From positions 116,317 to 180,316 of IMG/VR virus record IMGVR_UViG_3300024265_000030: a stretch of 64,000 nt of DNA; one strand, given 5' to 3'. Both the position numbers and the translations under genes were made by a program. This stretch comes from a virus. The notes beneath the pieces were generated by a model. The model did no database searches. It was not told the DNA's origin and was given only the letters and a program-made list of their open reading frames with translations. This document shows positions 7,001-29,928 of the stretch, piece after piece; position 1 is the stretch's first letter; the number at the start of each line of letters is the position of its first letter.

Positions 7001-10000
7001 TTGGCGTACCCACTACAGTTAGCTACAAAACGTGAACTAGAAAGTAAAGCACAAGATATTAAGTTTTTTGTTGAATTGGATTGGATGAGAAATAGATGGG
7101 AATATAATATAGATTCCTATGACGCTTGGGTTCAGTTTAGGGAAGTTATTTATTTATTTAATAGTTCTGTTTCGAGTGCAACTACCGACACACTAACGCT
7201 AAATGATAGTATGAGTGGTAGTAATATGTATATAGGAAAATATTTATTAATTAGAGAAGGAGGGGCAGAAGGGCAGCTAAGAAAAATTGAATCTCATACA
7301 ACAGAGGTTATAACTTTAGAAAATTCATTTGATATTGTTCCTTATGCGGGTGTATCTGCAAGTGTTATCAATATACTTGGCGTTAATGACATAGATAGTA
7401 ATTCAAGAATAGGCGCTAGTGCGTTTAATTCTTTTGGTGTTACTGCTCTTCAGGACAATATTGGTAGTGGGACAGTTGCCAATGTTGCTTATACACTATC
7501 TGCTCAATCTGATATCTGGACATTAATATGTATAACTTCTGAGGAGATTGATGGGGTACAGACAGCTAGGTTTTTAGTTAAAGGTGAAACTAATGGATTA
7601 CAGGAAGATGCTTTTTCTGATATAAGTTATAATAACGGACTTATATCTTTTACAGTAGAAAGCGGTAGTCGTGATTTTGAAGAGGGTGATACATTTATTT
7701 TAAGGCCAGCCTTAACTACAAAAAAAGATGATGCCGGTGATTTTCAGGAAGCTACTGTTTTTAGTGGTACAGATTATACTTCTGCTCCGCTATTATACGG
7801 TGGGCCTGATTTTTTAGCATGGGATGAAATAACATGGGAAGGTTCAAATGTTGAAGTTTATGTAAGAACAAGTAATAGTGATACTGAGCCAACTTGGTCA
7901 AGATGGAGTTTAGCTATTAAGGATCAAATTATATCTGGTGAACAATTAGGGATGTATTTACAGATTAGAGTAAAGCTTATACCCCCTACGCCGACTACGC
8001 AGCCTATAATATACGGTTTAAAGATTAAATATAAAGTAAAGGCACATACTAATTTTACTAGTCACTACCAGCATGTCTATGGTTTTAACAGAATAAAGAG
8101 TATTAGGGTTAGTAGGAGTAAGTCAGAAGCGTTGGAGGGTTATTCTGCTGCTGATATGAATATAACATGGGATAACAGTGATGGTAGTTTTAGTAAAGAG
8201 AATGTAGACAGTCCTTACTTTGGTTATTTAAGACCGAATATAGGGGTTAAAATATATACCGGTTTTAGTGAAGAGCTTATCCCCCGTCTTGATGGATTTA
8301 TAGGCGGATTTAACGTACAGGCCGGAGGTAGAAGTTTTACTACACGAGGTAAAGATAGAATTAAATTATTAATAAAAAAGAAAATCAAAAAAGGTGATGC
8401 CGGTTTTAGGTCTTGGACAAATCAGACATTAGCTTTTTTAGTTAAAATACTTGCTTTAGATTCTGATTTTCCATTAGAGGATTTAGACCTGTTTGATTTA
8501 GTTGTTAACCCTGAAATATCATATGTTACTTTTAAAGGTAAACATGCATGGGAGGCAATTCAGGCCTTGGCTACAGGTGCTTTAGCAGATGTATTTGCAA
8601 CAGAGAATGGTAAGTTAAAAGTTATTGATAAGTTTAGCCCTAAGTATAGTATTCCGGCACCTGGTATATACACAGACGGTGCAGATTATTTAAATATTAT
8701 ACATAATGATTATTTTAAACAGGTTGTTTTTAGTGTTATGTATAAACAGGCAAATGTTTTGTACAGTTACTTAAACAGTGAGCTCCAGTTAATAACCGAA
8801 GGTGTTTTTGGTATGACGTATGTATACAATGATGATTTTCAATCAGGCAGGGAAAGGCATAATATATGGTTTACTAGTGAAAATACTTTGTATAGATTAC
8901 TGGGCTCTTTAACAGAGATAGGATTTGAAGAGATAGCTAACATACAAACTATTGATATTAACATTAAATTTACTAACCTAAGTGTTTATAATAAAATTTA
9001 TAAGGATTTGATAGGTGGGTATGTAAGTAAAAATACAGAAGTCGATACGGCTACTGCGAATCTCATTACAGTTAAGGACAACTTAGGGGTAGTGGACACG
9101 TATAAAGGTGATTACGTGCTGATTAAAAGTGGGGTAGAGTCTGGTAATATGCGTCAGATAAAGACGCATACTAGCCTTGTAATTACACTTGAGACTTCTT
9201 TTGATACTGTTTTAGTTGCTGATGTAGACATAGATATCATAGAACTTCCGAAACGTACTATAGCAGATTTAATTTATTATGCAGGTGTATTTGGTATTAT
9301 TCTTTCTGATAGGTTATCTTACTATAAATATTCTGTTAGAGATACAGAGAATATAACAGAAGAGTTTCAAGCTGTTGATTTTGAAGATCATACGGATTCT
9401 CAATTAGATCCGTATGAGTATAACACTGCAACAGGCATTCTATATAAAAATTCAAAACTGAATTTAGAAAAAGAGTCTTCTGGTAAATTTGATACAGAAG
9501 TCTTTAAGGTGTCAGTTAGTGATGGTTCTTTAACTAAATTACAGTACGATGATACATTTAACGGTAATCAGTTTTTCTTTGTTCCAGAGGGTGAGACTGT
9601 TACAGAAGGTAATGGTGAGGAAGGAGGTTACAGAGTACCTTGGAGTGGAAACGGATTTAAGTCTGGCTACGCGCAAAGTCCTTCAAGCTGGAGGTTTGGC
9701 GACACTAATGACGAAATAATAATAAATTATAGAGGGTCATTTGAGGCTTTAGGTGATTATTATCGAATAGTATACACTGCTAAGATACCTATTAGAAAGG
9801 TACTTGATACAAACCTATATGAGGATTACAGAGTTTATAAAAATTTAACCTATAACGGTGTCCCTGGGTATATGCTATCTTTAGTAAGCGCACAGACAGG
9901 TTTTAGTGCAAGTGACGGGGATGTTGTGACAGGTAATAACGGAGAAGCAGTTGTTTTTAAACATATATTACCTGATGGTGACATTTACGATTTACATAGA

Positions 10001-13000: not shown

Positions 13001-13552
13001 AACGATGCTGTACTACACGGTGTAAGTTTTTTAAGAATCGAGAATCCTACTAATGACCCTGTAGATTCTTTATATAGCTCAACTGAAGATCCATCACAAC
13101 TTGGAGTATGGATAAATAAAATTGAATTAAGAGGGCTTCCCGTAGTAGCACAGACTATAGATATGGCTTCAGTAAGAGATGAGAAGTCTATAAAAGAGTA
13201 TGGTAAGTCAGAGTTGTCTTTCCAGAATGAATATATACAAGACGGAGAAACTGCTTTAAAGGCTGGTAACTATTTGCTAAAAAGAAAAGCTCATCCTATA
13301 ATTAAACCTAATTTAAGTATTATTGGTTTACCTAATTTACAATTAGGAGACACAGTTAGTATTCGTGAGATTAATTCCGGGTTAGCTTATGACTTATGTG
13401 AAATTCTTAGTTTAGAGGATAATTTATCAGGAGCAACGTATACTATGAGTATAACTACTTTTAAAGTACTAGATAAACCTTTAGGTTCATTACTGATTGA
13501 AGATATATATAAAAGGAAATTATTAAAGAATAAATTTAAAGGGGCGGTATAA
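7001..13552 (+). CDS. Giant baseplate/tail hub-like protein (2183 aa)
   Basis: The start is TTG, directly abutting the preceding stop, with GGAGG at the end of that gene. Residues about 360-480 (IRVSRSKSEALEGYSAADM region, then a strand-rich segment ending in LDGFIGG) follow the pattern of phage hub proteins of the gp27/late-control-D type. The C-terminal 120 residues include LQLGDTVSI, a phrase common at the end of such hubs. Between them lies roughly 1500 residues of beta-rich sequence, far more than in typical hubs. Two copies of a roughly 70-residue module sit near residues 52-125 and 680-755, both with GQLRKI/GNMRQI and ITLE-SFD signatures. Hub assignment is an inference. Confidence 0.6.
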   Translation: MAYPLQLATKRELESKAQDIKFFVELDWMRNRWEYNIDSYDAWVQFREVIYLFNSSVSSATTDTLTLNDSMSGSNMYIGKYLLIREGGAEGQLRKIESHTTEVITLENSFDIVPYAGVSASVINILGVNDIDSNSRIGASAFNSFGVTALQDNIGSGTVANVAYTLSAQSDIWTLICITSEEIDGVQTARFLVKGETNGLQEDAFSDISYNNGLISFTVESGSRDFEEGDTFILRPALTTKKDDAGDFQEATVFSGTDYTSAPLLYGGPDFLAWDEITWEGSNVEVYVRTSNSDTEPTWSRWSLAIKDQIISGEQLGMYLQIRVKLIPPTPTTQPIIYGLKIKYKVKAHTNFTSHYQHVYGFNRIKSIRVSRSKSEALEGYSAADMNITWDNSDGSFSKENVDSPYFGYLRPNIGVKIYTGFSEELIPRLDGFIGGFNVQAGGRSFTTRGKDRIKLLIKKKIKKGDAGFRSWTNQTLAFLVKILALDSDFPLEDLDLFDLVVNPEISYVTFKGKHAWEAIQALATGALADVFATENGKLKVIDKFSPKYSIPAPGIYTDGADYLNIIHNDYFKQVVFSVMYKQANVLYSYLNSELQLITEGVFGMTYVYNDDFQSGRERHNIWFTSENTLYRLLGSLTEIGFEEIANIQTIDINIKFTNLSVYNKIYKDLIGGYVSKNTEVDTATANLITVKDNLGVVDTYKGDYVLIKSGVESGNMRQIKTHTSLVITLETSFDTVLVADVDIDIIELPKRTIADLIYYAGVFGIILSDRLSYYKYSVRDTENITEEFQAVDFEDHTDSQLDPYEYNTATGILYKNSKLNLEKESSGKFDTEVFKVSVSDGSLTKLQYDDTFNGNQFFFVPEGETVTEGNGEEGGYRVPWSGNGFKSGYAQSPSSWRFGDTNDEIIINYRGSFEALGDYYRIVYTAKIPIRKVLDTNLYEDYRVYKNLTYNGVPGYMLSLVSAQTGFSASDGDVVTGNNGEAVVFKHILPDGDIYDLHRLYIYDITGEFEEEDTITVNGKTAEVEHVYKVDKTNEVFFNRIITVYEESGSDYHGHLFYLDTADSYWGPASLVVKSTSFDFATSIPGAYPYAQVNMFTIPNSSMLDTSQTGEIHKVIAVEAMPNHSIVVVLCECFKEAQAYPYTTYSKTEYTYKLHWFKVDKPYGYTGKETEGSEIIYGVETLDLGDPRVRLYDAVYNPVYKHLDIAGGFTDDINQIAKLYRWSLTNIVVEFDNLAGKPFSNIYPDNAVDINTVIEKEYYYYFQKYGGYKSTTSEIYAWTDFMRTSEDKERCAVTQEIITLGTGDGVITEFSVPLANRPFDLQYVYIDGESIGTNFNFDGENAFLLEAPSSGSVVTAGAGKRVYRYYGTFLSYDLSSQIGGTPIWRDFTVSHDPYKPCKIRITINSDCNAGTVHIYGTNELGSPIDEIFDFGGAGIQTDENGDRYLESTNLFGTFNNAAPLSDADTCYNTTESRFRVESVYSDLIPGVILEIFTSVSDLDDQFGGDGTLSGYIDKVLIDVKKEGGLVEVKKISSEKRFKVSVVDKLNGVLYLGTENAGFTSRYSITGLDPIADYILEYDKNITDLSYGWDDNSIKNEIIVKSNKMETVPYRDVDIETGDPVSGNVPPSLWSGTLKEWLWARLERVWKSSAPNYLYKGHYLEYDVTFKDPVDNGGQINNIKFNAQFVENIGYLDENGYFKDSGDALNSDFPDHKLSDTLFGLHAGYGTSHTIDITEKYYRIFTPWDVSTTTLPAVYPIRYEDDFEISGDAVDVDLTDGIDLSGGDTVILNIGGSGAVTVSCASHAEDNTKVTATDIVVAINEAFLGFPASVFISRHTTTPHVLVQLKSTTRSDSTVISGGSAAVAIFGTASLTRTSRSYTRGELEKRNLIIYAGTVREPLTYEAGDFDIVEVLYPIAGDEVWALELTNPGDHVDKFLQLVYPDRINVVRSDIDKTYRDSDGSITNLLIQGSDRTLESYDPTGVLYTTSVGISGFHLNMIWPNDAVLHGVSFLRIENPTNDPVDSLYSSTEDPSQLGVWINKIELRGLPVVAQTIDMASVRDEKSIKEYGKSELSFQNEYIQDGETALKAGNYLLKRKAHPIIKPNLSIIGLPNLQLGDTVSIREINSGLAYDLCEILSLEDNLSGATYTMSITTFKVLDKPLGSLLIEDIYKRKLLKNKFKGAV

Positions 13553-16233
13553 TGAGCGGTAAATTAATTCCTATATTAGATGATAGCGCTATAACACACG
13601 GTAATCTATGGAATAACTTTAAGTATTTAGAGGAATATCTGAGAGCTATTGCTGTTAATGCTGAATTAATAACAGGCGTATCTTTGGATACTGATTTTCA
13701 ACAAGCTGTAGCTGATATACTGGCTGCGGATCTCGACTCTTTTATTACTAATTTAGCTGATTCCATATATAATCAGGATGATTTTCTATCTAGGATAGTT
13801 GAGGAAGATAGCAGCACAGGTGGAGAATTTGATGGATTAGAAAACAACCTAACTTTTTTAGGGAATCTTATCGATGAGTTATCTGATTCGACAACATTTA
13901 TATCTGCATTTGTTGATTACTTACAGAATAATGCACCGGACTTTTTTGCATCTTTAGAGGGTGATGTGTTTAAGGCTTACTTCGGGCCTGCTCTAGATTT
14001 ATTAATGTTTGCTACTACGTTACAAGAGACAGGGGTAGTGGGAGTATACTCGTTATGGGAGACAGGGGAGCCGGACATTATAGGGGATGATGCTACAAAA
14101 TATGTAGGTGTAACTTTTGGGTTAGAAGATAATTTTCAATCAGATTTTAATTTGTTTGTGTCTCGTGATAGTAATTTTTCTAATATAGCAGTACATCCTG
14201 ATGACGTAGGTGCTTATCCGCTAGAGGATCCCCCTACAGCTGTTTTAAGGTATACATATGATGCGTTTGATAATACAGGAGGTAATGCTGCCGGTGTTAT
14301 AGCGGGTGCTTTTTTTAGTTCTATAGACGGAGCGCTACTATTAGATATATCTAAATTGGAATGGGACGGGCAGTCAGAGTTATATGTTAAACTAATGGGA
14401 ACAAAAAGTAATTTAACGTATATAAGGGTTGGGTTCGATTATGCTACACATGCTTCTCAAGTTACAGAGGGTACTAGTGTAGGGGCTAGTACAGGGTTTG
14501 CAACAGTGGTTGTAAATACTCAGGATGAGTGGGAAAAAATTGCAGGTAAAGCAGGGGAGCCTGAAAAAGCTGTCGGGTACTGGGACGGAACTAAGATAGT
14601 GTGGCCAGCTACAATGAAAGTTATTCTTGGAACAATAGACATACAGGACGCAGGTGCGTCAGGCGGTGATGTATTTGATGGCGGTTATGCTTATAAGATG
14701 CCTTATTCGATTTATTTTGATGGAGATAATATACAGATATTAGGTCAAGGTAAGGTTACGCTTGTTAAGGGAAGTGATGATGCAGTATTTAAATCTTTGA
14801 TACAACTAGAGGAGGCAAGTACAGGCCACCTAGAGACAGGAGATAAGAACATAATTTACATAGTTATTGATGAAGGTGATTTCAAGAAAGGTGATTTGAT
14901 TCATTACGCATTAAATGATGGGTACTATACTGTAGTAGACATTGATGTGATAGGAAATAGTATTACGGTGGACAGAGCTATTATAGAGGCAACAGCAGGA
15001 AGTACGATTACAGTACTTATAAATAATCTTAAAATGGAAGGCTTCACTTTTGATGGTAGAGGAGGGGTACTTACAGGACATGGTTCTTTAAAGACCGGTG
15101 ATAATGATGGTGGTAATGAGGGGGGTGGTTTTGCTCAGTTACAGGCAGTAGGTAATAGCGAGATATCCTGTAGGGTTGTTAATTGTAAAGCGAAAAACGG
15201 TGGGGCGTTTTGGTTAGACCGGTGTTATAATATACAGATATCTAATATTCAGTTTTGTGAAGCAGAGAAATTTGTTGGAGTAGGTGGTATGGGCGGAGGT
15301 GTTTATGGAGGTCAGTTAATTAGAGGGCATGTACATAGATGTCATGCAGATCAGGGCGGTGGTTTTGCTGCAGTTAAGAATGGTGAGTTATATGTATTCG
15401 ATTGTACGTCTGGTGTTGTAGGTAAGGAAGCGTTTCATGTTTGTATTGATTCACTTATTGCTTTTAATAAGAAATTAATTATTGATGATCTTGACATATT
15501 GGGAGACTTTAATATTACAGGAGATGCAGATATTCAGGGAAATTTAAATGTTAAAAATGATCTTGATACAGAAGGTTATTCCTCTCCTTCAGGAACCGGA
15601 CGGTTATATGCTAAACTCGGTGAGATTCGTGATCAAGGAAATGCAGTAGTAATTGAGGCTGATGGACATCTACATCCCAGTGGGGCATCTGGAATTAAGA
15701 GATGTGCAATTGATGTTAGCGGTAGTCCTTCTACTGTGGGTACGGCAGGAGATGATGTGGCAGTAACTGAGGGGTCTGGAACAGTAGTTAACAGAGAATT
15801 TATTGCTGAAAAAGTATGGAATGCACAGTGGAATGATGTAGTTGATTTTATGGAGCTTGATGATAAACTGGTATCTGGTATGTGTTACTATATTACGGAC
15901 AAGGGCGCAAAGCTATGTACTAAGCGGTGTCAGGCAGGCGTAATAGGTCTTGCGTCAGATACATTTGGTTTTGGTGTAGGTAGTTCTCCGGAACGAAAAT
16001 TACCATTATCAATTGCTGGTCGTGTATTAGCGTATGTAGATAAATGCTATAAAGCAGGAACAGTTTTAGTTAATAATAGCAAGGGTGGTTTAACTAAAGC
16101 CCGTTGGTATGAAGAGATATTATTTAGTAGTAGACTAGCGGCTATATACCAGAAAAAGGAATATGCAAAAAAATGGGGTACTAGTAAAAAGAAGATTAAA
16201 GTTAACGGAAGACATTGGGTAAAGGTATTATAA
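13552..16233 (+). CDS. Tail fibre/spike with beta-helix domain (893 aa)
   Basis: The start overlaps the previous stop as TAATG. Residues 1-150 look helical and could trimerise. Residues about 350-640 carry Gly-rich, short-strand repeats (for example GGGVYGG and NGGAFWLDRC) typical of a right-handed beta-helix of the pectate-lyase-like kind used in phage spikes. After a linker with alternating DIQGNLNVKNDL, the last 190 residues form another domain containing SIAGRVLAYVDKCYKAG. This loosely resembles the autoproteolytic peptidase G2/IMC tail-fibre domain, but I cannot verify catalytic residues. Likely host-surface binding or glycan-degrading spike. Confidence 0.65.
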   Translation: MSGKLIPILDDSAITHGNLWNNFKYLEEYLRAIAVNAELITGVSLDTDFQQAVADILAADLDSFITNLADSIYNQDDFLSRIVEEDSSTGGEFDGLENNLTFLGNLIDELSDSTTFISAFVDYLQNNAPDFFASLEGDVFKAYFGPALDLLMFATTLQETGVVGVYSLWETGEPDIIGDDATKYVGVTFGLEDNFQSDFNLFVSRDSNFSNIAVHPDDVGAYPLEDPPTAVLRYTYDAFDNTGGNAAGVIAGAFFSSIDGALLLDISKLEWDGQSELYVKLMGTKSNLTYIRVGFDYATHASQVTEGTSVGASTGFATVVVNTQDEWEKIAGKAGEPEKAVGYWDGTKIVWPATMKVILGTIDIQDAGASGGDVFDGGYAYKMPYSIYFDGDNIQILGQGKVTLVKGSDDAVFKSLIQLEEASTGHLETGDKNIIYIVIDEGDFKKGDLIHYALNDGYYTVVDIDVIGNSITVDRAIIEATAGSTITVLINNLKMEGFTFDGRGGVLTGHGSLKTGDNDGGNEGGGFAQLQAVGNSEISCRVVNCKAKNGGAFWLDRCYNIQISNIQFCEAEKFVGVGGMGGGVYGGQLIRGHVHRCHADQGGGFAAVKNGELYVFDCTSGVVGKEAFHVCIDSLIAFNKKLIIDDLDILGDFNITGDADIQGNLNVKNDLDTEGYSSPSGTGRLYAKLGEIRDQGNAVVIEADGHLHPSGASGIKRCAIDVSGSPSTVGTAGDDVAVTEGSGTVVNREFIAEKVWNAQWNDVVDFMELDDKLVSGMCYYITDKGAKLCTKRCQAGVIGLASDTFGFGVGSSPERKLPLSIAGRVLAYVDKCYKAGTVLVNNSKGGLTKARWYEEILFSSRLAAIYQKKEYAKKWGTSKKKIKVNGRHWVKVL

Positions 16234-16234
16234 A

Positions 16235-17617
16235 ATGGCCGGTAAAATAAGGTATATTAGAGATCGTGTTAACGGTAGTAATGCAAGTGGTGGTAATTAT
16301 TGGGTGGAGATAGAAGTATATGACGAGGATGGAAACAATATTGCTCTGGGTACATCTGTTTCTGTTAGTCCTGCTTATGGTGGGAGTGGAACTAACCTAG
16401 CCAGACTTACAGATGGAAATTTAGATACAGCGCAGTATGGCTCTATTAGTGGTGGATCAGGCGGGAACGGGGAGATACAGATTGATTTAGGAGGATTGTA
16501 TCTTGTAGCTTATATAAAGGTATGGCATTATTACGGGGATAAACGAAATTTTAATAGTAAACGAACACAGGTATCTGATAACGGATCTACCTGGATAGAT
16601 ATGGCATTACCTGGAACAGGTAGTTACCAGGAGCATAGTGGTGGAACAGTAATTAGAATACCATCTGTTTATTTTGATTTAATTCCTGTACATAGTCATA
16701 AAGATGCTGAATCTTCTGATGTAACAGATGCGATCAAAGCATTGCGTCAGTCTATGTCTCAGCGGTTTGGTAGTATACCTGATTTAGGGGCTCAGTATAA
16801 TATAGGAAATGATATTAAGGAAGGAACGACACTAGGTACTATAAATACAAAATTAAAGGCAGTGGATGCTTTATATGGGTGGGATGTAGATCCTCCTAAT
16901 AAATTTGAATATGATGATATTCAAGGTATGCTTTCTGAGACGGATAGGATTTCTAGTTTAACAGAGTGTAGTTCAGACTGTTCTAGTTTATGTAAAAATA
17001 ATTGTTCAAATAGTTGTTTTGGTATATGTAAGGATTTATGTATAGTTGGTTGTGGTGATGGGTGTGCTGCTGCCTGCAGTACACCCTGTACTACAAATTG
17101 TTCAACAGCATGTTCAGGTTGTGGTGTGTCTTGTGCGATAGGGTGTGGGGCTGCTTGTCAGAGTAGTTGTGGTGGTTCTTGTGAATGGGGGTGTGTTGGT
17201 AATTGTGATACTCAGTGTGGTGTCTGTGATGTTCATTGTACGGCTAATTGTTCGGAGGGATGTCGTAGTTTTTGTGATGCTGGTTGTGGGGTTGTTTGTG
17301 ATGGTGGTTGTGGTAGTACTTGTGCCCATTCTTGCTATACTGGATGTAAGGACTATTGTGAACTTTCGTGTGGGGCACAGTGCTACGCTGCTTGTGCAAA
17401 TGGTTGTGGGACTGCTTGTGCTTCAGGGTGTGGTGCTTGGTGTGACGGTGGTTGTTCTTCTTCATGTGCAGGTAATTGTTATGCTGCCTGTGTAGCTTAT
17501 TGTGGTACAATATGTCAAACTAATTGTGGAGGTTTATGTTTTACATCGTGTTTAAATTGGTGTACAACAACTTGCGGAGATGAATGTTCAAATTACTGTT
17601 ATGGATCGGCGGTATGA
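16235..17617 (+). CDS. Discoidin-like tail protein with 54-Cys C-x3-C array
   Basis: The first 150 residues are strand-rich and resemble an F5/8 type C (discoidin) carbohydrate-binding domain: LARLTDGNLDTAQYG, IQIDLGG, VSDNGSTW. A short helical linker follows. Residues 1-244 contain no cysteine at all. Residues 245-455 contain 54 cysteines: 51 intervals are C-x3-C and two are C-x2-C (293-296 and 328-331). Intervening residues are mostly Gly, Ala, Ser, Thr, Asn and Asp with scattered aromatics. The stop overlaps the start of a radical SAM/SPASM gene, so the array is very probably its substrate (inference). The N-terminal domain suggests a virion appendage or adsorption protein. Metal binding by free thiols is the main alternative. 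Confidence 0.85.
   Translation: MAGKIRYIRDRVNGSNASGGNYWVEIEVYDEDGNNIALGTSVSVSPAYGGSGTNLARLTDGNLDTAQYGSISGGSGGNGEIQIDLGGLYLVAYIKVWHYYGDKRNFNSKRTQVSDNGSTWIDMALPGTGSYQEHSGGTVIRIPSVYFDLIPVHSHKDAESSDVTDAIKALRQSMSQRFGSIPDLGAQYNIGNDIKEGTTLGTINTKLKAVDALYGWDVDPPNKFEYDDIQGMLSETDRISSLTECSSDCSSLCKNNCSNSCFGICKDLCIVGCGDGCAAACSTPCTTNCSTACSGCGVSCAIGCGAACQSSCGGSCEWGCVGNCDTQCGVCDVHCTANCSEGCRSFCDAGCGVVCDGGCGSTCAHSCYTGCKDYCELSCGAQCYAACANGCGTACASGCGAWCDGGCSSSCAGNCYAACVAYCGTICQTNCGGLCFTSCLNWCTTTCGDECSNYCYGSAV
16967..17599 (+). repeat. Cys-array coding repeat, 12-nt period
   Basis: A Cys codon recurs every 12 nt, with two 9-nt intervals where the period slips. Fifty of 54 are TGT and four are TGC. The two slips divide the array into blocks of 13, 9 and 32 cysteines. 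The codons between cysteines are diverse, so the pattern is conserved at the protein level rather than being a recent DNA tandem duplication. Confidence 0.9.
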
Positions 17618-18879
17618 CGGAAACACATAAAGATTTTATGGTTATTTCTAAAGGTAACTGGTCTAACGACTATGCATCTATGTTTGGTGGAATAAGTATG
17701 CCTAAGTCTATATCTATTCAAGTTACTGAAAGATGTAATTTAAGATGTACCTACTGCTATTTTTATAAGAGGCGCGGTAAAGATATAACATATGCTATTT
17801 TAGACAAAATAATTAGTATGGTGTATACAAACCCTTTTTTTAGTGACACGCCTTCCTTTATATTTGATTTTATAGGAGGGGAGCCTTTACTGGTGAGCGA
17901 TAAGTTACAGTACTTTATAGAAAATTACTATAAAGAAGGCTTAAAGAGAAACGTTAAGAATATACAAAAATTGTATAGTACTCGATTCTCCATGTCTTCT
18001 AATGGGGTGTTATATTTTTCAGATAAAACTAGAAGTTTATTAAAAAGGTATGCACATATAATTAGTTTTGGCATTACTCTTGATGGTTCTCCCGAGATGC
18101 ATAATAAATGTAGAATTTATCCAAATGGTGATGGTTCTTATGCCGATGTAAGAAAAGCTGTAGATGAACAATTAAAATATAATAAAGGTTTATCCAGTAA
18201 GGTTACTTTTTCGGTGGACAATATACATATGCTATACGATGCTATAAAACATCTAATAAGTATAGGCATTAAAACAATACACGCTAATCCTGTTTTTGAA
18301 AAAGGATGGAAAATAAAACATGCAGAAATATATTATGATGAATTAATAAAATTAGCTAATTATATACTAAATAATGATTTGGAAAATAAAGTGGATGTTA
18401 ATTTATTTACACAAAATATCGGAAAACCAATGGATGAACGTGAGAATAGTAATTGGTGCGGAGGTACAGGTGCGATGTTAGGCATAGGTTTTGATGGTAG
18501 TATCTACCCATGTGCTAGATATTTTCCAACAGCTCTAAGTAAATATAAGCCACCTGTAATAGGAAATGTTTTTGATAATAAAATTGATTGGGCATGTAAT
18601 AAGGTAACAAAAGGTATTGATAAAATAACTCGTAAAAGTCAGTCATCAAAAAGATGTTGGGAATGTTTAGTTGTACAGGGATGTGCTTGGTGCTCCGCTT
18701 ATAATTATGATTATTATGGTATAATTAATAAACGGACAACTCATATTTGTAACATGCACAGAGCTAGGGTAAGGGCTAACTATTATTATTGGAATTCAGT
18801 TTATCAAAAATATAATATGGATACTGAGTTTATTCTTTATCCGTGTGAATGGGTTGAAGATCCTGAATACGGATACTAA
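17614..18879 (+). CDS. Radical SAM/SPASM peptide maturase
   Basis: The start is the ATG in the ATGA overlap with the Cys-array gene; an earlier in-frame ATG at 17584 would lie deep inside that gene. The CxxxCxxC 4Fe-4S/SAM motif is C41, C45, C48 (ERCNLRCTYCYF). The C-terminus has a seven-cysteine SPASM pattern: C282, C300, C348, C351, C357, C360, C379, expected to hold auxiliary Fe-S clusters. SPASM enzymes include those installing thioether bonds on Cys residues of ribosomal peptides (sactipeptides, ranthipeptides). At 421 aa the length fits. Its position suggests co-translational modification of the Cys array. The reaction (thioether, epimerisation or other) cannot be read from sequence. 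Confidence 0.9.
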   Translation: MTETHKDFMVISKGNWSNDYASMFGGISMPKSISIQVTERCNLRCTYCYFYKRRGKDITYAILDKIISMVYTNPFFSDTPSFIFDFIGGEPLLVSDKLQYFIENYYKEGLKRNVKNIQKLYSTRFSMSSNGVLYFSDKTRSLLKRYAHIISFGITLDGSPEMHNKCRIYPNGDGSYADVRKAVDEQLKYNKGLSSKVTFSVDNIHMLYDAIKHLISIGIKTIHANPVFEKGWKIKHAEIYYDELIKLANYILNNDLENKVDVNLFTQNIGKPMDERENSNWCGGTGAMLGIGFDGSIYPCARYFPTALSKYKPPVIGNVFDNKIDWACNKVTKGIDKITRKSQSSKRCWECLVVQGCAWCSAYNYDYYGIINKRTTHICNMHRARVRANYYYWNSVYQKYNMDTEFILYPCEWVEDPEYGY

Positions 18880-18892
18880 AAAGGAGAGTTTT

Positions 18893-19201
18893 ATGGATAC
18901 AGTAAGTAGTAATGTAAAAGTTAAAGTAGACAAGAAATTTGTTGACAGATTAAAGGGACTTAACTACGAGTTGGAAACAATTAAGATGTTATTTCAGATG
19001 GATGATGTTTCTGATAATGTATACCAGCGTATTAAAAAAGACCTTATTGCTGTTAAGAAACAGTATGACGAAGTTTGGTATGAGATGAAAAAGAAGTATG
19101 ATTTATTTAAGTATGAAAAACCACATTTTAGGTGGAATCTTGATTTTGAGCTTGCTGAGGTTATTTTAATTACACAGGGAGAGTATACGGGTAGGAGGTA
19201 A
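18893..19201 (+). CDS. Small helical protein after the maturase (102 aa)
   Basis: The chosen ATG has AAGGAGAG eight bases upstream and begins MDTVSSNVKVKVDK. An upstream in-frame ATG at 18845 lacks such a site and would overlap the maturase. The sequence is charged and mostly helical (residues 15-75, with YDEVWYEMKKKYD) with no Cys and no membrane segment. I do not recognise it. It could be a structural linker, a chaperone or a partner of the maturase; the last is suggested only by its position. Confidence 0.65.
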   Translation: MDTVSSNVKVKVDKKFVDRLKGLNYELETIKMLFQMDDVSDNVYQRIKKDLIAVKKQYDEVWYEMKKKYDLFKYEKPHFRWNLDFELAEVILITQGEYTGRR

Positions 19202-21933: not shown

Positions 21934-24486
21934 GTGGCAGAACTAAAACTTTGGAATAAATTAGAATCAGGTACAAGTGAGGTCGGTGTAGATGGCTCAG
22001 TTACAGGAGGTACGTTTGTTCCGGCTAAATACAATAATGGATTTCAAATAGATGCTATTAGTGAGTATATAGATTTTAGTATAGTTCCTGATGAAGATTA
22101 CGGAGCTATAGAGTTATGGTTTATGCCATCTTTTTCAAGTACCGATACTACAAACAGATATATTGTGGACAGATCCGATGTAACTACTAGGGTAGGATTT
22201 AGGTGGGATTCTACTTCTATGTTTATAGTGCAGCACGGTGGTGTAACTGTTTCTGCAAACCCTGTATCCTTTTTAGCTGGAGATTTATTACACTTAGCTG
22301 TTGTTTGGGATGTTGACGGTATAGAAGGTTCTGCAGATACATTACGATTTTATTATAATGGTATATTGCTCGGTAGCACAACTTCAGTGTTGAGTTCACT
22401 AGCTCAAACAGATATAAGGGTAGGTACTGATCAGGCAAATGCATTGTATGCTAACGGTGTAATAGATAATTTAAAAATGTATGATTATGCTAAGACTGAT
22501 TTTTCAGATAGATTTTGGGAAGGTTATTCTCCTGTCACAGAGCAACAATTTGATCGGTTAGATAAAGCACCCGCAGTGTTGGAGTCTACTTCTTATCTAT
22601 CCGGTAAAGAGATCGAAGTACCGGAACCAGATCATTATTGGAAACTTGATGAGGTTAGTGGAGATAAAGTAATTGATTCTGGAAAAAATCAAATTAATGG
22701 AATAAATAGTAGAGTAGCTGTTAATCAAGATGGTTCTTATTTATTTGATGGTACCTCTGGTTATATAAATATAGCAGTTTCTGATATACCTATAGGAGCA
22801 GAGGCAAGAACTACTATTGCATGGATTCAAGCTTCAACTATTTCTGGATATGATACAATATTATCCTGGGGAACTGCTTCTGCTGATCAAATATGGACAA
22901 TGTATTCAAATGCAGGAGATTTGATATTATCTATGTCTGGTACTAGTTTAACAGCTTCTAGTGTTATATCAATTGATACTTGGTATCATGTAGCAGCAAC
23001 TTATGACGGTACAACAGTCAGATTATATCTTGACGGTGTTCTTATAGGTACATTGGTTCGTACTATTAATACCGGTTCTAGCGATTTTCACATAGGTGTA
23101 TATATTGATAAGTCTCAAGAGTGGTTTGATGGGAATATAAAGAATGTTAGTATATATAACCAAAATTTAAGTTTATGTCAGATAAAAACAATATATGAGC
23201 AGGAAAAAGCTGAGCTTATTGAATCAGATATACCAATACCAGAACATCACTATCTTCTTGATTCCCTTGCTATAGCAGATAAGGGTAAAGGTAGTTTGAT
23301 ACTGCCAGGTCATTATTATGCAATGGATGAAACAGAACAAACAGTCAAAGCATTAGATGGCGGGATATACCCAGTTATTGCAGCAATGAATAATACACCT
23401 GTTAGTGAGGTTGGTAAGTATGGAAAAGCATTGCATTTAAATGGTACTACTCAGTATGTTAGTGCTGTTTCTATAAGCATAGGTAAAAGTTTTACTGTGT
23501 GTGTTTGGGTAAAGGCAGATGGTACTACCTGGAATGATAATGCAGTAATAGGCAGCGCAAGGGCAGCTAATGGTTATGTAATGAACTGCGGTACCGGAGT
23601 TACTACATTTGGCGCATATGTTTATAATTCATCGGGGGGACCTATTCAGACGATGGTAGCTCAGGATATTGGATTTGTTAATCAATGGAGACATTATGCT
23701 ATAGTTCATGATAATGATAATGATAAAACATATCACTATGTGGATGGTAAGTTACTTTATATATACAGCGGTGCTATTGTAAGAACAGTAGGGACAATTA
23801 GTCCGGAAATAGGAAAAGATTCTACATTCGCAAGATACCACGATGGTCTTATAGATGATTATAGATTATATGATAAAGTATTATCGCAGCAGGAACTAAT
23901 TGCTGCTATGAATAATACAGATACACGCCGTCTTGCTTATGGTACTCTTTCAGCCACACCTCCTACTCTTGTATATGATAGTGAGATTGGTGAGTGTTTG
24001 AGCTTTAATGGTACAAATAACAGTATAGGTTGTGGTAATACTTGGAACTTTGAAAGTAATGAGAGTTTTGCTGTATCTGGTTGGTTCAAGATGGCATCCC
24101 CACCAGTAACTACAAGGGATGTAATAATTTCAAATAAATTAGAAACAGGTTCTCCTACCAGAGGATGGGAAGTATTTGTGCAACATACATCCGGTAACTT
24201 AAGATTTAGTATAACTGGAGATACAGGTACAAGTATAGCAGTAGAGCCTGCCGTAGATGTTGCTGATGATACCTGGCATAGTTTTTATGCAGAATATGAC
24301 GGTTCAGGAAAAGCTTCCGGGTTGCTTTTATATTTGGATGGCGTTAGGCTATCACAGACTATTGAGGCAGATAATCTTGCCGGTTCTATAGTAGACTCAG
24401 CTTCTGATGCGTCTATAGGCTCAAATAACAATGCTGACTTTTACTGGAATGGAAGACTAAAAGATATGAGGGTATGGAATAAATGA
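21934..24486 (+). CDS. Tail protein with four LamG-like domains (850 aa)
   Basis: Start is GTG, with AGGGAG at the end of the previous gene. About four concanavalin/LamG-like jelly rolls can be read (residues about 3-195, 233-430, 440-640, 650-850). Each has the typical order: a YWKLDE or LWNKL opening, YLFDGTSGYI-type strand, W-H/FVxxxYDG core, LYLDGVLIGT strand and a DxxIYN closing strand. The gene ends in MRVWNK, before the usual closing helix; that helix is encoded at the start of the next gene. Such domains usually bind glycans; here probably host adsorption. Confidence 0.8.
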   Translation: MAELKLWNKLESGTSEVGVDGSVTGGTFVPAKYNNGFQIDAISEYIDFSIVPDEDYGAIELWFMPSFSSTDTTNRYIVDRSDVTTRVGFRWDSTSMFIVQHGGVTVSANPVSFLAGDLLHLAVVWDVDGIEGSADTLRFYYNGILLGSTTSVLSSLAQTDIRVGTDQANALYANGVIDNLKMYDYAKTDFSDRFWEGYSPVTEQQFDRLDKAPAVLESTSYLSGKEIEVPEPDHYWKLDEVSGDKVIDSGKNQINGINSRVAVNQDGSYLFDGTSGYINIAVSDIPIGAEARTTIAWIQASTISGYDTILSWGTASADQIWTMYSNAGDLILSMSGTSLTASSVISIDTWYHVAATYDGTTVRLYLDGVLIGTLVRTINTGSSDFHIGVYIDKSQEWFDGNIKNVSIYNQNLSLCQIKTIYEQEKAELIESDIPIPEHHYLLDSLAIADKGKGSLILPGHYYAMDETEQTVKALDGGIYPVIAAMNNTPVSEVGKYGKALHLNGTTQYVSAVSISIGKSFTVCVWVKADGTTWNDNAVIGSARAANGYVMNCGTGVTTFGAYVYNSSGGPIQTMVAQDIGFVNQWRHYAIVHDNDNDKTYHYVDGKLLYIYSGAIVRTVGTISPEIGKDSTFARYHDGLIDDYRLYDKVLSQQELIAAMNNTDTRRLAYGTLSATPPTLVYDSEIGECLSFNGTNNSIGCGNTWNFESNESFAVSGWFKMASPPVTTRDVIISNKLETGSPTRGWEVFVQHTSGNLRFSITGDTGTSIAVEPAVDVADDTWHSFYAEYDGSGKASGLLLYLDGVRLSQTIEADNLAGSIVDSASDASIGSNNNADFYWNGRLKDMRVWNK

Positions 24487-26843
24487 TACTAACACCAAGC
24501 CAGATTAAATTTTTATACGATAACGGGATCGCTACTACACCAACAGATTATAGACATGGGAAGTTCCATAAAGGTGTATTTGATTTATCTTATTATGGTT
24601 TACCTACGAATTGGCAGTTAATGTCAAGCAGTACTTTATCTGCATGGATAAAGGCTAATCCAGATGTAGTACGTGATGACTATCACATATTCGGAAATGA
24701 TAAACTTGCGTTAGTTAGAAATGATAGCAAGATAGCTGTAGTTCAAAACATCCCAGAGAGGCAGTGTATACTATGGAACAAGATGAAAGCTGCGGAAAGT
24801 GAAATTGGTCCAGATGGTGTTGTTACTGGAGGAAGTTATGTAGCTTGTAAATTTAATAATGGTTTTCAGGTTGATGCTGATTCTGAGTATTTTACATTTA
24901 GTTCGATTGTTAATGGGTACGTTGGTTGTGTTGAGTTATGGTTAAAACCAGTTTCTTCTTTTGATGATGGTTCCACTGATAGATATATCTGGACATCAGT
25001 TGGTGGGGATACGTATTTATTTTATGACGCAAGTGCTAATGCTTGGGTATTTACTATTGGAGGCCAGTCAGTATCACTTTTAGATAGTTCTGTACCGGAT
25101 TCTACTTTAATACATATTGCAGCTTCTTGGAATTATTCTGAATCAAATAAAGCAATTGTTTTTAGGAATAGTGTTCAAGGAAGCGCTTTAACTACTGCTT
25201 ATACAGTTCCAAACGATACTGATTTTCGTTTTGGAAATAGTAATGTAAATACAGACGATGCTCATGCAATTCTTGATAACATAAAAGTATGGAATTATGC
25301 AAAAACTGATTTTTCTGACCGTGAAGTAGAGGATGCAGCTAATTTTACTGAGGGAGACAATGGTATAACAATTCCGTCTGATAATCAATATTTTCATATT
25401 GGTTGTAGAATTAACGATGACCAAACCTTTGATCTTTTTCTTGATGGTGTGAAGGTACATAGCTCAACTATGAAGATACCAGGTGAATGTTTTGAAGATA
25501 TTGAAGAGAAGTTCTGGCCAGAGCATTGGTGGAGGTTTGATGAGGGTTCTGGTACGGTTGCCTATGACTCTGGAAAATCGGGTGGCAAAAATGGAACCAT
25601 TTCAGGTAGTCCTTCTCTTGGTCAGATTGGCAAGAGAGGAAACTGTTTTGATTTTGTGGCAGCTAGTTCTCAATATGTAGATATAGGCGATGTAGCAACA
25701 AACATGAAGTCCATTAGTTTTTGGGCTAAGCTCGATAGTACTACAGAAGAACTAATAGCTTTATCAGGTGCAGTTCGAAGTATAGAAATAACAAGTGGCA
25801 CTATTACAGCTACAGGGTTAACGTCTCCAGATATATATATAGATGGCGTGAAGATATCAACTTTTGCTGATACCAATTGGCATATGATAACTGTTACTAC
25901 AGCGACAGCATTTGATCCTGATAATATGGATATAGGTAGAGTAGATACTACATATCTTGATGGTTTAATTGACGATGTAAGACTTTTTATTAATAAGTTA
26001 TCTATTCAGGAAGTTCGTCAGCTTTATGAATATACAAACAATTACTATTTTCCTCAACCAAGAATAAGTATAGGTGAAACCATTAGCGGAAGACTTGCTA
26101 AGTCACTTCATTGGTGGAAGTTAAATGAGAGAAGCGGTCTTACTATTAAAGATTATGGCATAAGTAAAAATGATGGAGCTATAACAGGAGGAACAGTAAA
26201 CCATCCAGGAAATTTTGGATCTAGAGTTTCAAGATTAGACGGTGGAACAGATCAGTTTTTAAGCACTTTTGTTTATGACCATACTAACTTTACTGTATCT
26301 TGGTGGATGTGTCCTGATGACACGTCTATAGCTAGTAATACTCTTGTAGCTGGAGATGACTGGACCAAGTTTTTATTTTATACAACTGTAGCAGCATCGC
26401 CTACTACAGGTTATATAGGTATAGCTACATCTGATAGAATTAACCCTACGAATTTTCCAACTCCGTGGATACATGCATATGAATGGCAGCAGATTGTTTT
26501 TGTGTATGATGGAACAAATGGGAATTTATATAGAAATGGGCAGCTCTTATATGCTAAAGCGATGGCAGCCCCAACTGCTAGTTTTGCTAGATTTCTTGTA
26601 GGGAACTACGGTGGTGGAAATGAGTTTAGTGGTAAATTTTCAAATATAAAAATTTATGACTTTGATTTAACATTAGATGAAATACGTCAGTTGTATACTT
26701 TAGGAAGAACTTCTGATGGTGAAGTTTGCGATATACGTTATGACAGATTGGCTTTATCTGATGAAGAGATTAAGTTATTAGCTGAATCTAATCGTCCGAC
26801 AGATTCCGATCAAAATTCTGAAGAGAGGTATATAAGATTATGA
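24483..26843 (+). CDS. Tail protein with three LamG-like domains (786 aa)
   Basis: Coupled to the preceding gene by ATGA. The first residues (MILTPSQIKFLYDNG) look like the closing helix of a LamG unit, SxxEIKxLYDxG, rather than a natural N-terminus. Full domains follow at about 93-290, 345-520 and 535-745, opening with LWNKM, HWWRFDEGSG and HWWKLNERSG. The second is closely related to domains in the genes at 26911 and 29925. Probable virion adsorption protein. Confidence 0.8.
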   Translation: MILTPSQIKFLYDNGIATTPTDYRHGKFHKGVFDLSYYGLPTNWQLMSSSTLSAWIKANPDVVRDDYHIFGNDKLALVRNDSKIAVVQNIPERQCILWNKMKAAESEIGPDGVVTGGSYVACKFNNGFQVDADSEYFTFSSIVNGYVGCVELWLKPVSSFDDGSTDRYIWTSVGGDTYLFYDASANAWVFTIGGQSVSLLDSSVPDSTLIHIAASWNYSESNKAIVFRNSVQGSALTTAYTVPNDTDFRFGNSNVNTDDAHAILDNIKVWNYAKTDFSDREVEDAANFTEGDNGITIPSDNQYFHIGCRINDDQTFDLFLDGVKVHSSTMKIPGECFEDIEEKFWPEHWWRFDEGSGTVAYDSGKSGGKNGTISGSPSLGQIGKRGNCFDFVAASSQYVDIGDVATNMKSISFWAKLDSTTEELIALSGAVRSIEITSGTITATGLTSPDIYIDGVKISTFADTNWHMITVTTATAFDPDNMDIGRVDTTYLDGLIDDVRLFINKLSIQEVRQLYEYTNNYYFPQPRISIGETISGRLAKSLHWWKLNERSGLTIKDYGISKNDGAITGGTVNHPGNFGSRVSRLDGGTDQFLSTFVYDHTNFTVSWWMCPDDTSIASNTLVAGDDWTKFLFYTTVAASPTTGYIGIATSDRINPTNFPTPWIHAYEWQQIVFVYDGTNGNLYRNGQLLYAKAMAAPTASFARFLVGNYGGGNEFSGKFSNIKIYDFDLTLDEIRQLYTLGRTSDGEVCDIRYDRLALSDEEIKLLAESNRPTDSDQNSEERYIRL

Positions 26844-26914
26844 TTGGCTGTGTACTTATAGGAATAGCAGTAGTATTATTTATTATTGATTTTATACAGG
26901 ATAGTAGAGTATGA
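26840..26914 (+). CDS. 24-aa single-span membrane peptide
   Basis: A 24-codon frame overlaps the previous stop by ATGA and its own TGA overlaps the next ATG the same way. AGAGAGG lies about ten bases upstream. The product is one hydrophobic helix (CVLIGIAVVLFIIDFI) with a short charged tail (QDSRV). Overlaps at both ends match the spacing of real genes here. Function unknown; a small lysis or membrane-associated peptide is possible. It could also be only a spacer that keeps ribosomes on the message. Confidence 0.55.
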   Translation: MIGCVLIGIAVVLFIIDFIQDSRV

Positions 26915-29031
26915 GTAATTATGATATAAACTGGGAACAGTATTTTTTACCCGATCATCACTGGAAGCTTAACGAGGAGAGCGGTATAGCTGTTCCTGAT
27001 TCAGGAAAGATACCGGCTTCTGATGGAGTAAATAATGGTCCTACTGATATTAATAGGATAGGCAAGGTTGGCAAATGTTATGAATTAGACGGTACAAGCA
27101 GTGAATATATAACTGTTGTAAATAACGGAACATTTCAGCTTGGGTTTCATTTTACCTTTACCGCCTGGATTTATATGAACTCAGTTGCTGGAGCACCAAG
27201 GTTTATATCAAAGAGTGAGAGTGCTGGTGGTACTTCATATGATTGGTGGTGGCAGATGGCAGCTGGCCCAAAGCTTCATGCTGGTTTTGTAATGGAAGAT
27301 GCAACTAATGTTAGTTACCTAAGCACAGGTCAAACATTAGTTATTGGAAGATGGTATTTTATATGTGTAGTATTTACAGGGGATTTGATACACCATTACT
27401 TAGATGGTGAATTTGATGATTCTGGAATAAGTACGCCTGTACCAGGCAAAAGACCTCGAGACACTGCTGGGCGAGGATTTAATATATGTAGACTTTTTTC
27501 AGGTGTTCCTGATTACTATGATTTCAATGGAAAAATAGATGATGTTCGTATTTATAATGAGAAAGCATTAAGTGCATCTGAAATCAAACAACTATATGAT
27601 TATACTAATAACTATCGTAACCAAGCACTTCCTATCGTACATAAACCAACACATGATAAATATACTAAGGTATATTGTACTTTTGATGGTGATTTACACG
27701 ATGAATCAGAAAGAGAACATATAGTAAATCCTTTTGATGCGGCTCAACTTAGCAATGCTCAGAGTAAGTTTGGTACTGAGTCTGTTTATTTTGATGGGAC
27801 TGGTAGCAGATTAGAAATACCGGATAGCGAAGACTGGTATTTTGGCACTGATGATTTTACTATTGACTTTTGGATATACTTTAATACGCTGCCTTCCACC
27901 TCTAGTTGGACTAATCTTATAACTCAGCGAGTAGACGGCACTAATATGCTTCAGTTTTTCTATGACGGTAGAACGGCAAACCAGGGATTTGCCATGGATG
28001 TATATGATAGTGGTCTGGTTATTCAGGTAGCGGCAACTGGTAACCCAGTAAGTACAGGACAATGGTATCACGTTGCGTATGTTAGAAACGGTACTAATTT
28101 CCGCATCTATCTGGATGGTTTGATGGTGGAAGAAATTACAGATGCAGACTTGCTACCTAATCTGGCTGCTCCTTTACTTATAGGCAGGATGTCCATAGCT
28201 AATGGTACATATTTTGACGGATACTTGTCTGATTTTCGTATATCAAAAGGTATAGCTCGTTGGTTTTCTGATTTTACACCCCCAACAGCACCCTATGTGT
28301 CTACAAGATACATTAATCTCAGTAGAAATAGGCAAGATATAGTTACACAGTGGCCTGTACATTGGTGGAAATTAAATGAGACAGTAGGCATAGATGTTAT
28401 TAATAGCGGATCAGCTGCTGTTTTAGGTGTTAATTCAAATGCAGGAATAGCACAGGAAGGCTATCATCAGAAAAAATGTTATAAGTTTAATGGAACTTCT
28501 AGTTACATTGATGTTGGTGATACAAATACTAATATTAAATCTGTTGGGTTTTGGATATATGTCAATTCACTTACAGAAGATATTATGGATCTCGATGGAG
28601 GCACGCATACTATAGAAGTGACAAACAGAACTATTACTGCTACTGGATTTGTTTCTCCTACAGTATATACAGATAGTGTAATAGCTTCAGATTTAACTAT
28701 TGGTTGGCATCATATCTTTATTACAACTGCTACTGCTATTGATGTTAATAATTTAGATATAGGTAAAGAGACAAATTATTTAGACGGGTATATGCAGGAT
28801 GTACAGATGTATACTGAAGAGCTATCATTTTCAGATGTATATCGTATTTATAAGTATGGATTACCTACAAATGCATTAGGCGATTATTGTGCCAAATATT
28901 ATCCGACCTTATTGGAAAAAGGCCAGATAAAGGCTGTATCTCAGAATAGATTTACCGGTGCAGTATTACCAGAAAAGCTAAGATCGGTTGATCCCGACGA
29001 GGCTCTTATCATACAGCCAGGGAGTTTTTAA
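26911..29031 (+). CDS. Tail protein with three LamG-like domains (706 aa)
   Basis: ATGA-coupled to the 24-aa peptide. LamG-like units lie at about residues 8-235, 245-460 and 478-655. The first opens DHHWKLNEESG and closes with SASEIKQLYDYTNNY. The second has the AQSKFGTESVYFDGTGS and QWYHVAYVRNG pattern. The third closely parallels domains in the genes at 24483 and 29925 (HWWKLNE, YIDVGDTNTNIKSVGFW, ITATGFVSPTVY). The last 45 residues differ. Presumed adsorption apparatus. Confidence 0.8.
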   Translation: MSNYDINWEQYFLPDHHWKLNEESGIAVPDSGKIPASDGVNNGPTDINRIGKVGKCYELDGTSSEYITVVNNGTFQLGFHFTFTAWIYMNSVAGAPRFISKSESAGGTSYDWWWQMAAGPKLHAGFVMEDATNVSYLSTGQTLVIGRWYFICVVFTGDLIHHYLDGEFDDSGISTPVPGKRPRDTAGRGFNICRLFSGVPDYYDFNGKIDDVRIYNEKALSASEIKQLYDYTNNYRNQALPIVHKPTHDKYTKVYCTFDGDLHDESEREHIVNPFDAAQLSNAQSKFGTESVYFDGTGSRLEIPDSEDWYFGTDDFTIDFWIYFNTLPSTSSWTNLITQRVDGTNMLQFFYDGRTANQGFAMDVYDSGLVIQVAATGNPVSTGQWYHVAYVRNGTNFRIYLDGLMVEEITDADLLPNLAAPLLIGRMSIANGTYFDGYLSDFRISKGIARWFSDFTPPTAPYVSTRYINLSRNRQDIVTQWPVHWWKLNETVGIDVINSGSAAVLGVNSNAGIAQEGYHQKKCYKFNGTSSYIDVGDTNTNIKSVGFWIYVNSLTEDIMDLDGGTHTIEVTNRTITATGFVSPTVYTDSVIASDLTIGWHHIFITTATAIDVNNLDIGKETNYLDGYMQDVQMYTEELSFSDVYRIYKYGLPTNALGDYCAKYYPTLLEKGQIKAVSQNRFTGAVLPEKLRSVDPDEALIIQPGSF

Positions 29032-29198
29032 TGTCAGTAAAGTATTTCAAATGCAGAAAGTGTAGGAGTGTGTGTATCAGGCATACTGATAGTGAAAATA
29101 TTATTTGTGATAGGTGCGCATTTAACTCTGTCATGGTTGAAATATCTGTAGAGGAATTTCAAAGGTGTTTTATTAAACATGGATCGGGAGTAAAATAA
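29031..29198 (+). CDS. 55-aa zinc-ribbon protein
   Basis: Starts in a TAATG overlap with the preceding stop and ends one base before the next GTG start. Cysteines C8, C11, C26 and C29 form a CxxC-x14-CxxC knuckle pair, with two extra cysteines at 15 and 46. This is the pattern of a small zinc ribbon. Its function among LamG tail genes is unknown; it could be a structural part, an assembly factor or a small regulator. Confidence 0.65.
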   Translation: MSVKYFKCRKCRSVCIRHTDSENIICDRCAFNSVMVEISVEEFQRCFIKHGSGVK

Positions 29199-29199
29199 G

Positions 29200-29928
29200 G
29201 TGGAAGGTAAAATAACAGTAATACCGAAGTTTGATTTAGATAACTATAATAACCTATACTGCGCACTGGAGGGTAACCTTAATGATGAATCCCGGTATAA
29301 CCGTATAGTTACCTCTGTCGGTAATAACGTATCTTTTAGTACGATACAAAGTAAATTCGGAAGCCGATCTCTTTATATTGACGGAACAGATTCTAATAGG
29401 CTAGAGGTAGATAACCGAGTTGGTGGTTTAAAAATGAGGCAGCAAGACTATACCATACATTTTTGGTGGTACAGAACGTCTATCATAGCAGACGAAAACT
29501 GCTTTTGTGAGATAGGTGATATTAATGTAGGAGCAGAGAAACATATTTTATTCAGAACAAGTTCTACAGGTCAGGGAATTCAGCTGTATATTAATGGGAC
29601 GGTAGGTTACATCATTAATAGTGCTTATACATTTTCTCTTAATCAGTGGTATCATATTGCTCTTGTAAGATCAGGCGGATTTACTACAGTTTATGTAAAT
29701 GGTCTATTCGTTGCATCAGGAGCAGACACACACGATATAAATCCTACAACTAGTAATGCATACCTTTTTTCTGCAGTTCATTCAACAACGCAAGTTGCTG
29801 AGGGTTATTTTTCTGATTTTGTTATAGATAGAGGAATAGGGCGCTGGAACTCTAACTTTACCCCTCCTTCTAGATATTCTATAGAGGCATTATCTATTTC
29901 TAAACATGGAGAACATATAGTATTATGA
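29200..29928 (+). CDS. Single LamG-domain tail protein (242 aa)
   Basis: GTG start with a GGGAG/AAGG site upstream. One complete LamG-like unit covers most of the protein: LYCALEGNLNDESRYN, IQSKFGSRSLYIDGT, NQWYHIALVRSGG, TTVYVNGLFVASG, then FSDFVIDRGIGRWNSNF. It is closest to the second domain of the preceding large gene, which ends with the same RWxSxFTPP signature. The stop overlaps the next ATG (ATGA). Confidence 0.8.
   Translation: MEGKITVIPKFDLDNYNNLYCALEGNLNDESRYNRIVTSVGNNVSFSTIQSKFGSRSLYIDGTDSNRLEVDNRVGGLKMRQQDYTIHFWWYRTSIIADENCFCEIGDINVGAEKHILFRTSSTGQGIQLYINGTVGYIINSAYTFSLNQWYHIALVRSGGFTTVYVNGLFVASGADTHDINPTTSNAYLFSAVHSTTQVAEGYFSDFVIDRGIGRWNSNFTPPSRYSIEALSISKHGEHIVL

Follow-up and report, generated by a model that had tools for sequence, protein, structure and literature searches.

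The 64,000-nucleotide window analysed here lies in a virus record of 180,316 bases. On its plus strand it carries a tail-type gene ending in a dense cysteine array (ORF A), with genes for a radical SAM/SPASM enzyme (ORF B) and a small third protein (ORF C) on its 3′ side. The features, in window coordinates, are the following:

13552-16233, plus strand: 893-residue gene immediately 5′ of ORF A, with a C-terminal Peptidase_G2-like fibre end
16235-17617, plus strand: ORF A, 460 residues, tail-type N-terminus and CXXX cysteine array (presumed substrate)
16376-16612, plus strand: F5/8 type C (discoidin-like) domain, ORF A residues 48-126 (PF00754)
16667-16966, plus strand: cysteine-free segment preceding the array, ORF A residues 145-244; likeness to domain D (see below) by eye, not significant
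16967-17599, plus strand: cysteine array, ORF A residues 245-455, 54 cysteines in 211 residues
16967-16993, plus strand: array start motif CSSDCSSLC (CxxxCxx[LM]C), from motif counts in viral and genome arrays
17584-18879 (alternative start 17614), plus strand: ORF B, radical SAM/SPASM enzyme, 431 residues (TIGR04115, PF04055)
17734-17757, plus strand: CxxxCxxC motif of ORF B, CNLRCTYC, residues 51-58
18457-18750, plus strand: seven SPASM cysteines of ORF B, residues 292-389
18893-19201, plus strand: ORF C, 102 residues, distant relative of TIGR04116 (E 4.4e-6)

The array operon within the tail module

A recount agreed with the cysteine distribution given in the original prediction: residues 1-244 of ORF A are free of cysteine, and all 54 cysteines fall between residue 245, the first, and residue 455, the last. 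Consecutive cysteines are spaced by four positions in 51 of 53 cases and by three in the other two, which makes the repeat a CXXX array; acidic residues account for 9% of its non-cysteine residues. ORF A is the sole such array among the 252 ORFs of the record, whose mean cysteine content is 1.6%. Its N-terminal part was matched by phrog_21973, a “tail protein” family (residues 4-143, E 3.3e-11), the same residues being spanned by phrog_36443 together with phrog_21973. The earlier label “discoidin-like” is a fair one, although the PF00754 match (E 1.2e-4, 22.7 bits) stays below the curated cut-off of 28.2. None of the NCBIfam target models matched ORF A to E 0.1, and its N-terminus (MAGKIRYIRDRVNGSNASGGNY) showed no twin-arginine export signal.

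The enzyme had been described as complete, and both CNLRCTYC and seven SPASM cysteines (residues 292, 310, 358, 361, 367, 370 and 389) were found in ORF B. The ATGA overlap with ORF A, of four bases, holds if translation begins at ATG 17614; ATG 17584, preceded by GGAGATGA, is another possible start and gives an overlap of 34 bases. The top NCBIfam model for ORF B was TIGR04115, with 341.4 bits (9 short of the cut-off of 350) and E 7.8e-102; it describes the “radical SAM peptide maturase, CXXX-repeat target family”. Next came PapB (NF047865, 168.9 bits, under the cut-off of 340). The SCIFF model TIGR03974 reached 79.6 bits, under its cut-off of 425, and PF04055 matched as well. Judged by sequence, ORF B appears to belong to, or to border on, the bacterial family TIGR04115. 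A second radical SAM match in the record (8271-8450, L002; PF04055, 19.2 bits, below cut-off) lies far from the tail module.

The original prediction described a pair, and array and enzyme proved real, but it missed both ORF C and the kinship with the known bacterial TIGR04115 system. ORF C scored 26.8 bits, well under the cut-off of 50, against TIGR04116, the “CXXX repeat peptide modification system protein”. A TIGR04116-like ORF occurs near the enzyme in about 40 viral loci; the place of ORF C on that list is circular, the seed of the profile having included it, so that the independent evidence is the NCBIfam match. With ORF B related to TIGR04115 and ORF C to TIGR04116, the three genes form a set akin to the bacterial CXXX system. 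The AlphaFold2 model of ORF C (pLDDT 88.7) has the order beta-alpha-alpha-beta-beta and no significant match in the PDB. On both counts a classical RRE is no more than a possibility for ORF C, this order not being the one known for PqqD.

The claim that the locus sits in the tail operon was borne out by gene order, tail PHROG matches and a shared upstream fibre-end domain. The gene for terminase is at record position 86,207, that for the portal at 88,056 and that for the major head protein at 93,885; the giant ORF, the tail genes, the array and the enzyme come next on the same strand, and 3′ of the enzyme lie more lectin-type proteins and then replication genes. A 2183-residue gene at window position 7001 matches a tail-fibre PHROG. 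The 893-residue gene directly upstream of ORF A matched L041:56-700 (phmmer, E 1.7e-13), and its C-terminal domain is common to genes directly 5′ of arrays in other phages: an iterated profile recovered it in L004, L008, L013, L035, L039, L040, L044, L054, L056, L061, L066 and L067. The L035 copy exceeds the cut-off of PF11962 (Peptidase_G2), and the L013 copy is matched by PF06605 (Prophage_tail). No transporter or protease gene was found between ORFs A, B and C.

Two further features of the module were recorded. Downstream of the array operon, window positions 21934-32162 encode five consecutive large Laminin_G_3 (ConA-like lectin) proteins. The ORF at window positions 1-4929 is probably the end of the giant ORF (record positions ~106186-121245, ~5000 residues) that precedes the fibre genes, for which L173:6186-17000 is also cited; it is a candidate tape-measure protein or giant adhesin.

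Distribution of arrays and maturases

An enzyme profile built from three sequences (A1) retrieved 80 viral and 80 genome loci, and removal of near-copies left 70 viral ones; a single-sequence search of the viral contigs with ORF B returned no matches. The profile search for the same pair in other phages, proposed with the original prediction, found a cysteine array on the strand of the enzyme and no more than 3 kb from it in 61 of the 70 non-redundant viral loci, comprising 50 of 54 TIGR04115-like and 11 of 16 more distant ones. The background was three arrays in 456 kb farther out in the same loci, and control loci held five array-like ORFs in 763 kb. Some phage enzymes exceed the TIGR04115 cut-off (L026, 507 bits; L013, 429 bits). 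The viral loci without an array are L043, L046, L049, L063, L071, L076, L078, L080 and L087; seven of these nine records, searched whole, contained no six-codon CXXX pattern. L063 looks bacterial, with a fused enzyme adjoining ABC-transporter genes, and the enzymes of L071, L078, L080 and L087 make up a branch of their own.

An array-first census, using a DNA pattern of ten TGY codons, returned mostly DNA minisatellites. The credible Gly/Ser-type arrays had the enzyme in the locus (L008, L212, L249) or in the record (L201). Array-like ORFs in L191 and L198, possibly minisatellites, had no enzyme in their records of 7.6 and 38 kb. Cysteine proteins lacking an adjacent radical SAM gene, named beforehand as evidence against the prediction, were not found among clearly credible arrays. 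In the enzyme tree, viral sequences cluster (8 changes, compared with 33 after shuffling) and the clade of Tat-type Bacteroidota enzymes stands apart (SH-aLRT 99); ORF B lies on a long branch amid the viral sequences, with weak support. As far as the sequences go, phage array and maturase appear to constitute a large unrecognised class.

The motif CxxxCxx[LM]C opens 33 of 73 viral arrays, that of ORF A among them, versus 3 of 27 genome arrays, counts that are inflated by relatedness of the arrays; in later repeats, leucine or methionine precedes cysteine in 1.6%. Domain D, of 97 residues, occurs in about 50 array proteins, placed before the array or, in L013, L017, L039, L040 and L047, after it; in L064 it stands behind a GDSL lipase. 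Its predicted structure (pLDDT 78, helical) had no PDB match. Comparison of residues 145-244 of ORF A with domain D gave no significant match: hmmsearch returned 0.0083 (single sequence, without filters) and hhalign a probability of 0.8%.

Several peculiarities were noted among the collected loci. The arrays of L014, L023 and L065 are complete only when TAG codes for Gln; these contigs, along with L043, L046, L049 and L051, read through better with that reassignment, and their arrays or enzymes look interrupted when the standard code is used. Inteins or intein-like insertions (Hint, LAGLIDADG) lie within the radical SAM gene of L041, L058, L065 and L066, and in L069:4405-5520 a Hint-type domain directly follows the cysteine array in the same protein. 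Five cysteine-array ORFs, one of 968 residues, accompany one maturase in L045:243-6653, and the L054 record (G004) has four TIGR04115-like matches in ~6 kb. In L107-L110 (Termititenax / Margulisiibacteriota), which are possibly prophage, cysteine-array proteins of 495-667 residues adjoin TIGR04115-like enzymes.

The closest known arrangement is the bacterial CXXX-repeat system (TIGR04114, 04115, 04116, 04117 and 04119), the product chemistry of which is, to our knowledge, uncharacterised. It shares with our locus a CXXX array with Gly/Ser/Thr residues between cysteines, an enzyme of or near TIGR04115 with a TIGR04116-type small protein and, in some Bacteroidota arrays, a similar start motif, CxxxCxGLC. 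However, the Bacteroidota arrays stand behind a twin-arginine (Tat) signal, RREFFK, whereas that of ORF A stands behind tail-type domains, so the same array is found behind either an export signal or a tail domain. Bacteroidota clusters also have TIGR04119, which is present in L003 and L101, but none was found among the scanned ORFs adjoining ORFs A, B and C. The CXXX cluster of L003 has TatA/TatC-like genes after it.

Arrays at fibre ends and in cultured phages

Three array proteins carry recognisable fibre domains: L083 has an N-terminal phage tail-collar fibre domain (PF12571, E 1.8e-40) with the array at its end, and L072 and L079 match the tail-fibre families phrog_2631 (E 2.7e-32) and phrog_6722 (E 2.3e-40). 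These fusions provide direct evidence, at the level of sequence, that such arrays make up the C-terminal end of tail fibres. L083 resembles the present locus in joining a tail protein with a terminal cysteine array to an adjacent radical SAM enzyme, but differs in its classical fibre body, its array of only ~10 cysteines and its SPN3US-like enzyme branch.

Comparable genes are found in all six cultured jumbo phages examined, namely SPN3US (host Salmonella), CR5 (Cronobacter), phiEaH2, Kwan and SNUABM_29 (Erwinia), and Proteus phage 7. Each has two arrays, largely unannotated, between a virion, fibre or baseplate gene and two radical SAM genes, and the enzyme is present in 62 phage records, nearly all of cultured jumbo phages. 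The SPN3US arrays belong to phrog_6085 (function unknown) and have gp168/gp167 on one side and the radical SAM genes gp164/gp163 on the other:

JN641803 143828-144220: SPN3US array ORF 1, 130 residues, 21 cysteines in the array, unannotated
JN641803 143413-143817: SPN3US array ORF 2, 134 residues, 20 cysteines in the array, overlapping gp166, which uses another frame

Both this set and ours thus combine arrays and radical SAM genes next to baseplate or fibre genes. The SPN3US enzyme is much farther from TIGR04115 (125.6 bits) than ORF B, and SPN3US-type arrays have 20-23 cysteines, compared with 54 in ORF A, behind a short, different N-terminus; jumbo arrays contain no acidic residues. Existing descriptions of these genes go no further than radical SAM, hypothetical protein or no annotation. 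Jumbo array genes are absent from public records, or masked by genes annotated in a different frame or on the other strand, at L174:4094-4486 and 4497-4901, L006:2115-2920 and L295:3093-3900. SPN3US gp168-gp170 are baseplate/tail-fibre candidates (PMC5694885, PMC5105663), and gp163-166 go unnamed in the main text of the published virion papers. Mass spectrometry of SPN3US virions took cysteine carbamidomethylation as a fixed modification (PMC10052503), so that crosslinked cysteine peptides would have been missed. As JN641803 annotates neither array ORF as such, both may also have been outside the database searched, and the arrays contain hardly any Lys or Arg.

Radical SAM genes have also drawn comment in other cultured phages: their abundance in Campylobacter phages was described as highly unusual (PMC2853527), and eight such genes in a structural cluster with tail fibres were likewise remarked upon in Aeromonas phage 332-Vera (PMC12390700). 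In the record of Campylobacter phage F379 (L007), which has 11 radical SAM matches, gene F379_160 (L007:1-1059) encodes CDCNYCTC repeats ~4 kb 5′ of a radical SAM gene.

Probable function and competing explanations

The reading that we favour, with moderate confidence, makes ORF A an adhesin of the tail or a component of its fibres, and the C-terminal array the substrate on which ORF B acts, probably to form thioethers, with ORF C helping. ORF B would join array cysteines to neighbouring residues by means of SAM radicals and auxiliary clusters. Since it retains the SAM-cluster and SPASM cysteines, sulfur-to-carbon bonding at the array cysteines, giving thioethers, is the most likely chemistry. 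ORF C might, at a guess, assist in recognition or delivery of the substrate, and it is a fair guess that the array start CxxxCxxLC would serve as the recognition or entry site. Once modified, the array would give the tail protein an exposed end that is compact and chemically stable; that this product is rigid or a spike, as originally proposed, would be a guess. We infer that the array is modified, the chemistry of that modification, its location in the virion and a role in adhesion or stability.

The closest relative that has been characterised is PapB, of the freyrasin-type ranthipeptide system PapA/PapB, the second-best family for ORF B; there, as proposed here, several crosslinks are placed in one peptide. 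PapB forms six thioethers between Cys and Asp, both in-line and nested, with 2 Da lost for each (PMC9413430), and one of its auxiliary clusters binds the substrate thiol (PMC10470005). Whereas ORF A is a tail-type protein, PapA is a short peptide. The acceptor also cannot be that of the PapB pattern, CX3D, as position +4 is itself cysteine in nearly every repeat (51 of 53 in ORF A) and the jumbo arrays lack acidic residues; it would have to be Gly, Ser, Thr, Asn or Ala. This missing acceptor, together with the cyclophanes and other products made by related SPASM maturases, is what speaks for a different reaction on the array, such as epimerisation, the formation of carbon-carbon cross-links or the joining of chains in a fibre trimer. 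We regard such a reaction as unlikely, as TIGR04115 and PapB, which forms thioethers, are the enzymes with the nearest scores, and cysteine is the sole invariant residue of the repeats.

Two other explanations would separate the array from a modified fibre end, and we give little credence to either. The array might be a RiPP-like accessory product, released or displayed on the cell surface, that benefits the infected cell or eliminates competitors and whose gene only happens to be located in the tail operon. Secreted antimicrobials are common among RiPPs, and the Bacteroidota relatives carry Tat signals and are exported; but the N-terminus of ORF A is tail-type with no twin-arginine signal, the stretch from ORF A to ORF C has no transporter or protease gene, and the array is a tail-fibre end in L072, L079 and L083. 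Alternatively, the array could be left unmodified, holding disulfides, metal or Fe-S clusters, with ORF B acting on another protein. Cysteine-rich repeats can bind metals, and modification is itself our conjecture, but array and enzyme stay paired in phages and bacteria that are only distantly related, disulfide formation or metal binding by an array calls for no dedicated radical enzyme, and the cytoplasm is reducing during virion assembly. Finally, a metabolic gene that supports the host when oxygen is scarce, the role proposed in Campylobacter phages CP220 and CPt10 for their 11-12 radical SAM genes (PMC2853527), is very improbable here, because ORF B matches a peptide-maturase family and adjoins its substrate type in a tail module.

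Modified fibre ends thus remain our preferred reading: a known bacterial array-and-maturase system has probably been re-used to make modified, and probably thioether-cross-linked, ends of phage fibres. We consider it an even call whether these genes define a widespread but unrecognised class of tail fibres, with distal cysteine arrays densely crosslinked within the chain by phage radical SAM enzymes. The original prediction knew of no phage tail protein made in this way, and a literature search for phage tail cysteine arrays with a radical SAM maturase found no description; we are aware of no virion protein whose maturation depends on a radical SAM enzyme. SPN3US, for which amber mutants exist and virion mass spectra have been published, makes the reading directly checkable. 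If it is true, a maturation pathway of natural-product peptides builds part of the virus particle or its surface, adding new chemistry for receptor binding or survival outside the cell, and the puzzling radical SAM genes in structural clusters of cultured phages would have a testable reason.
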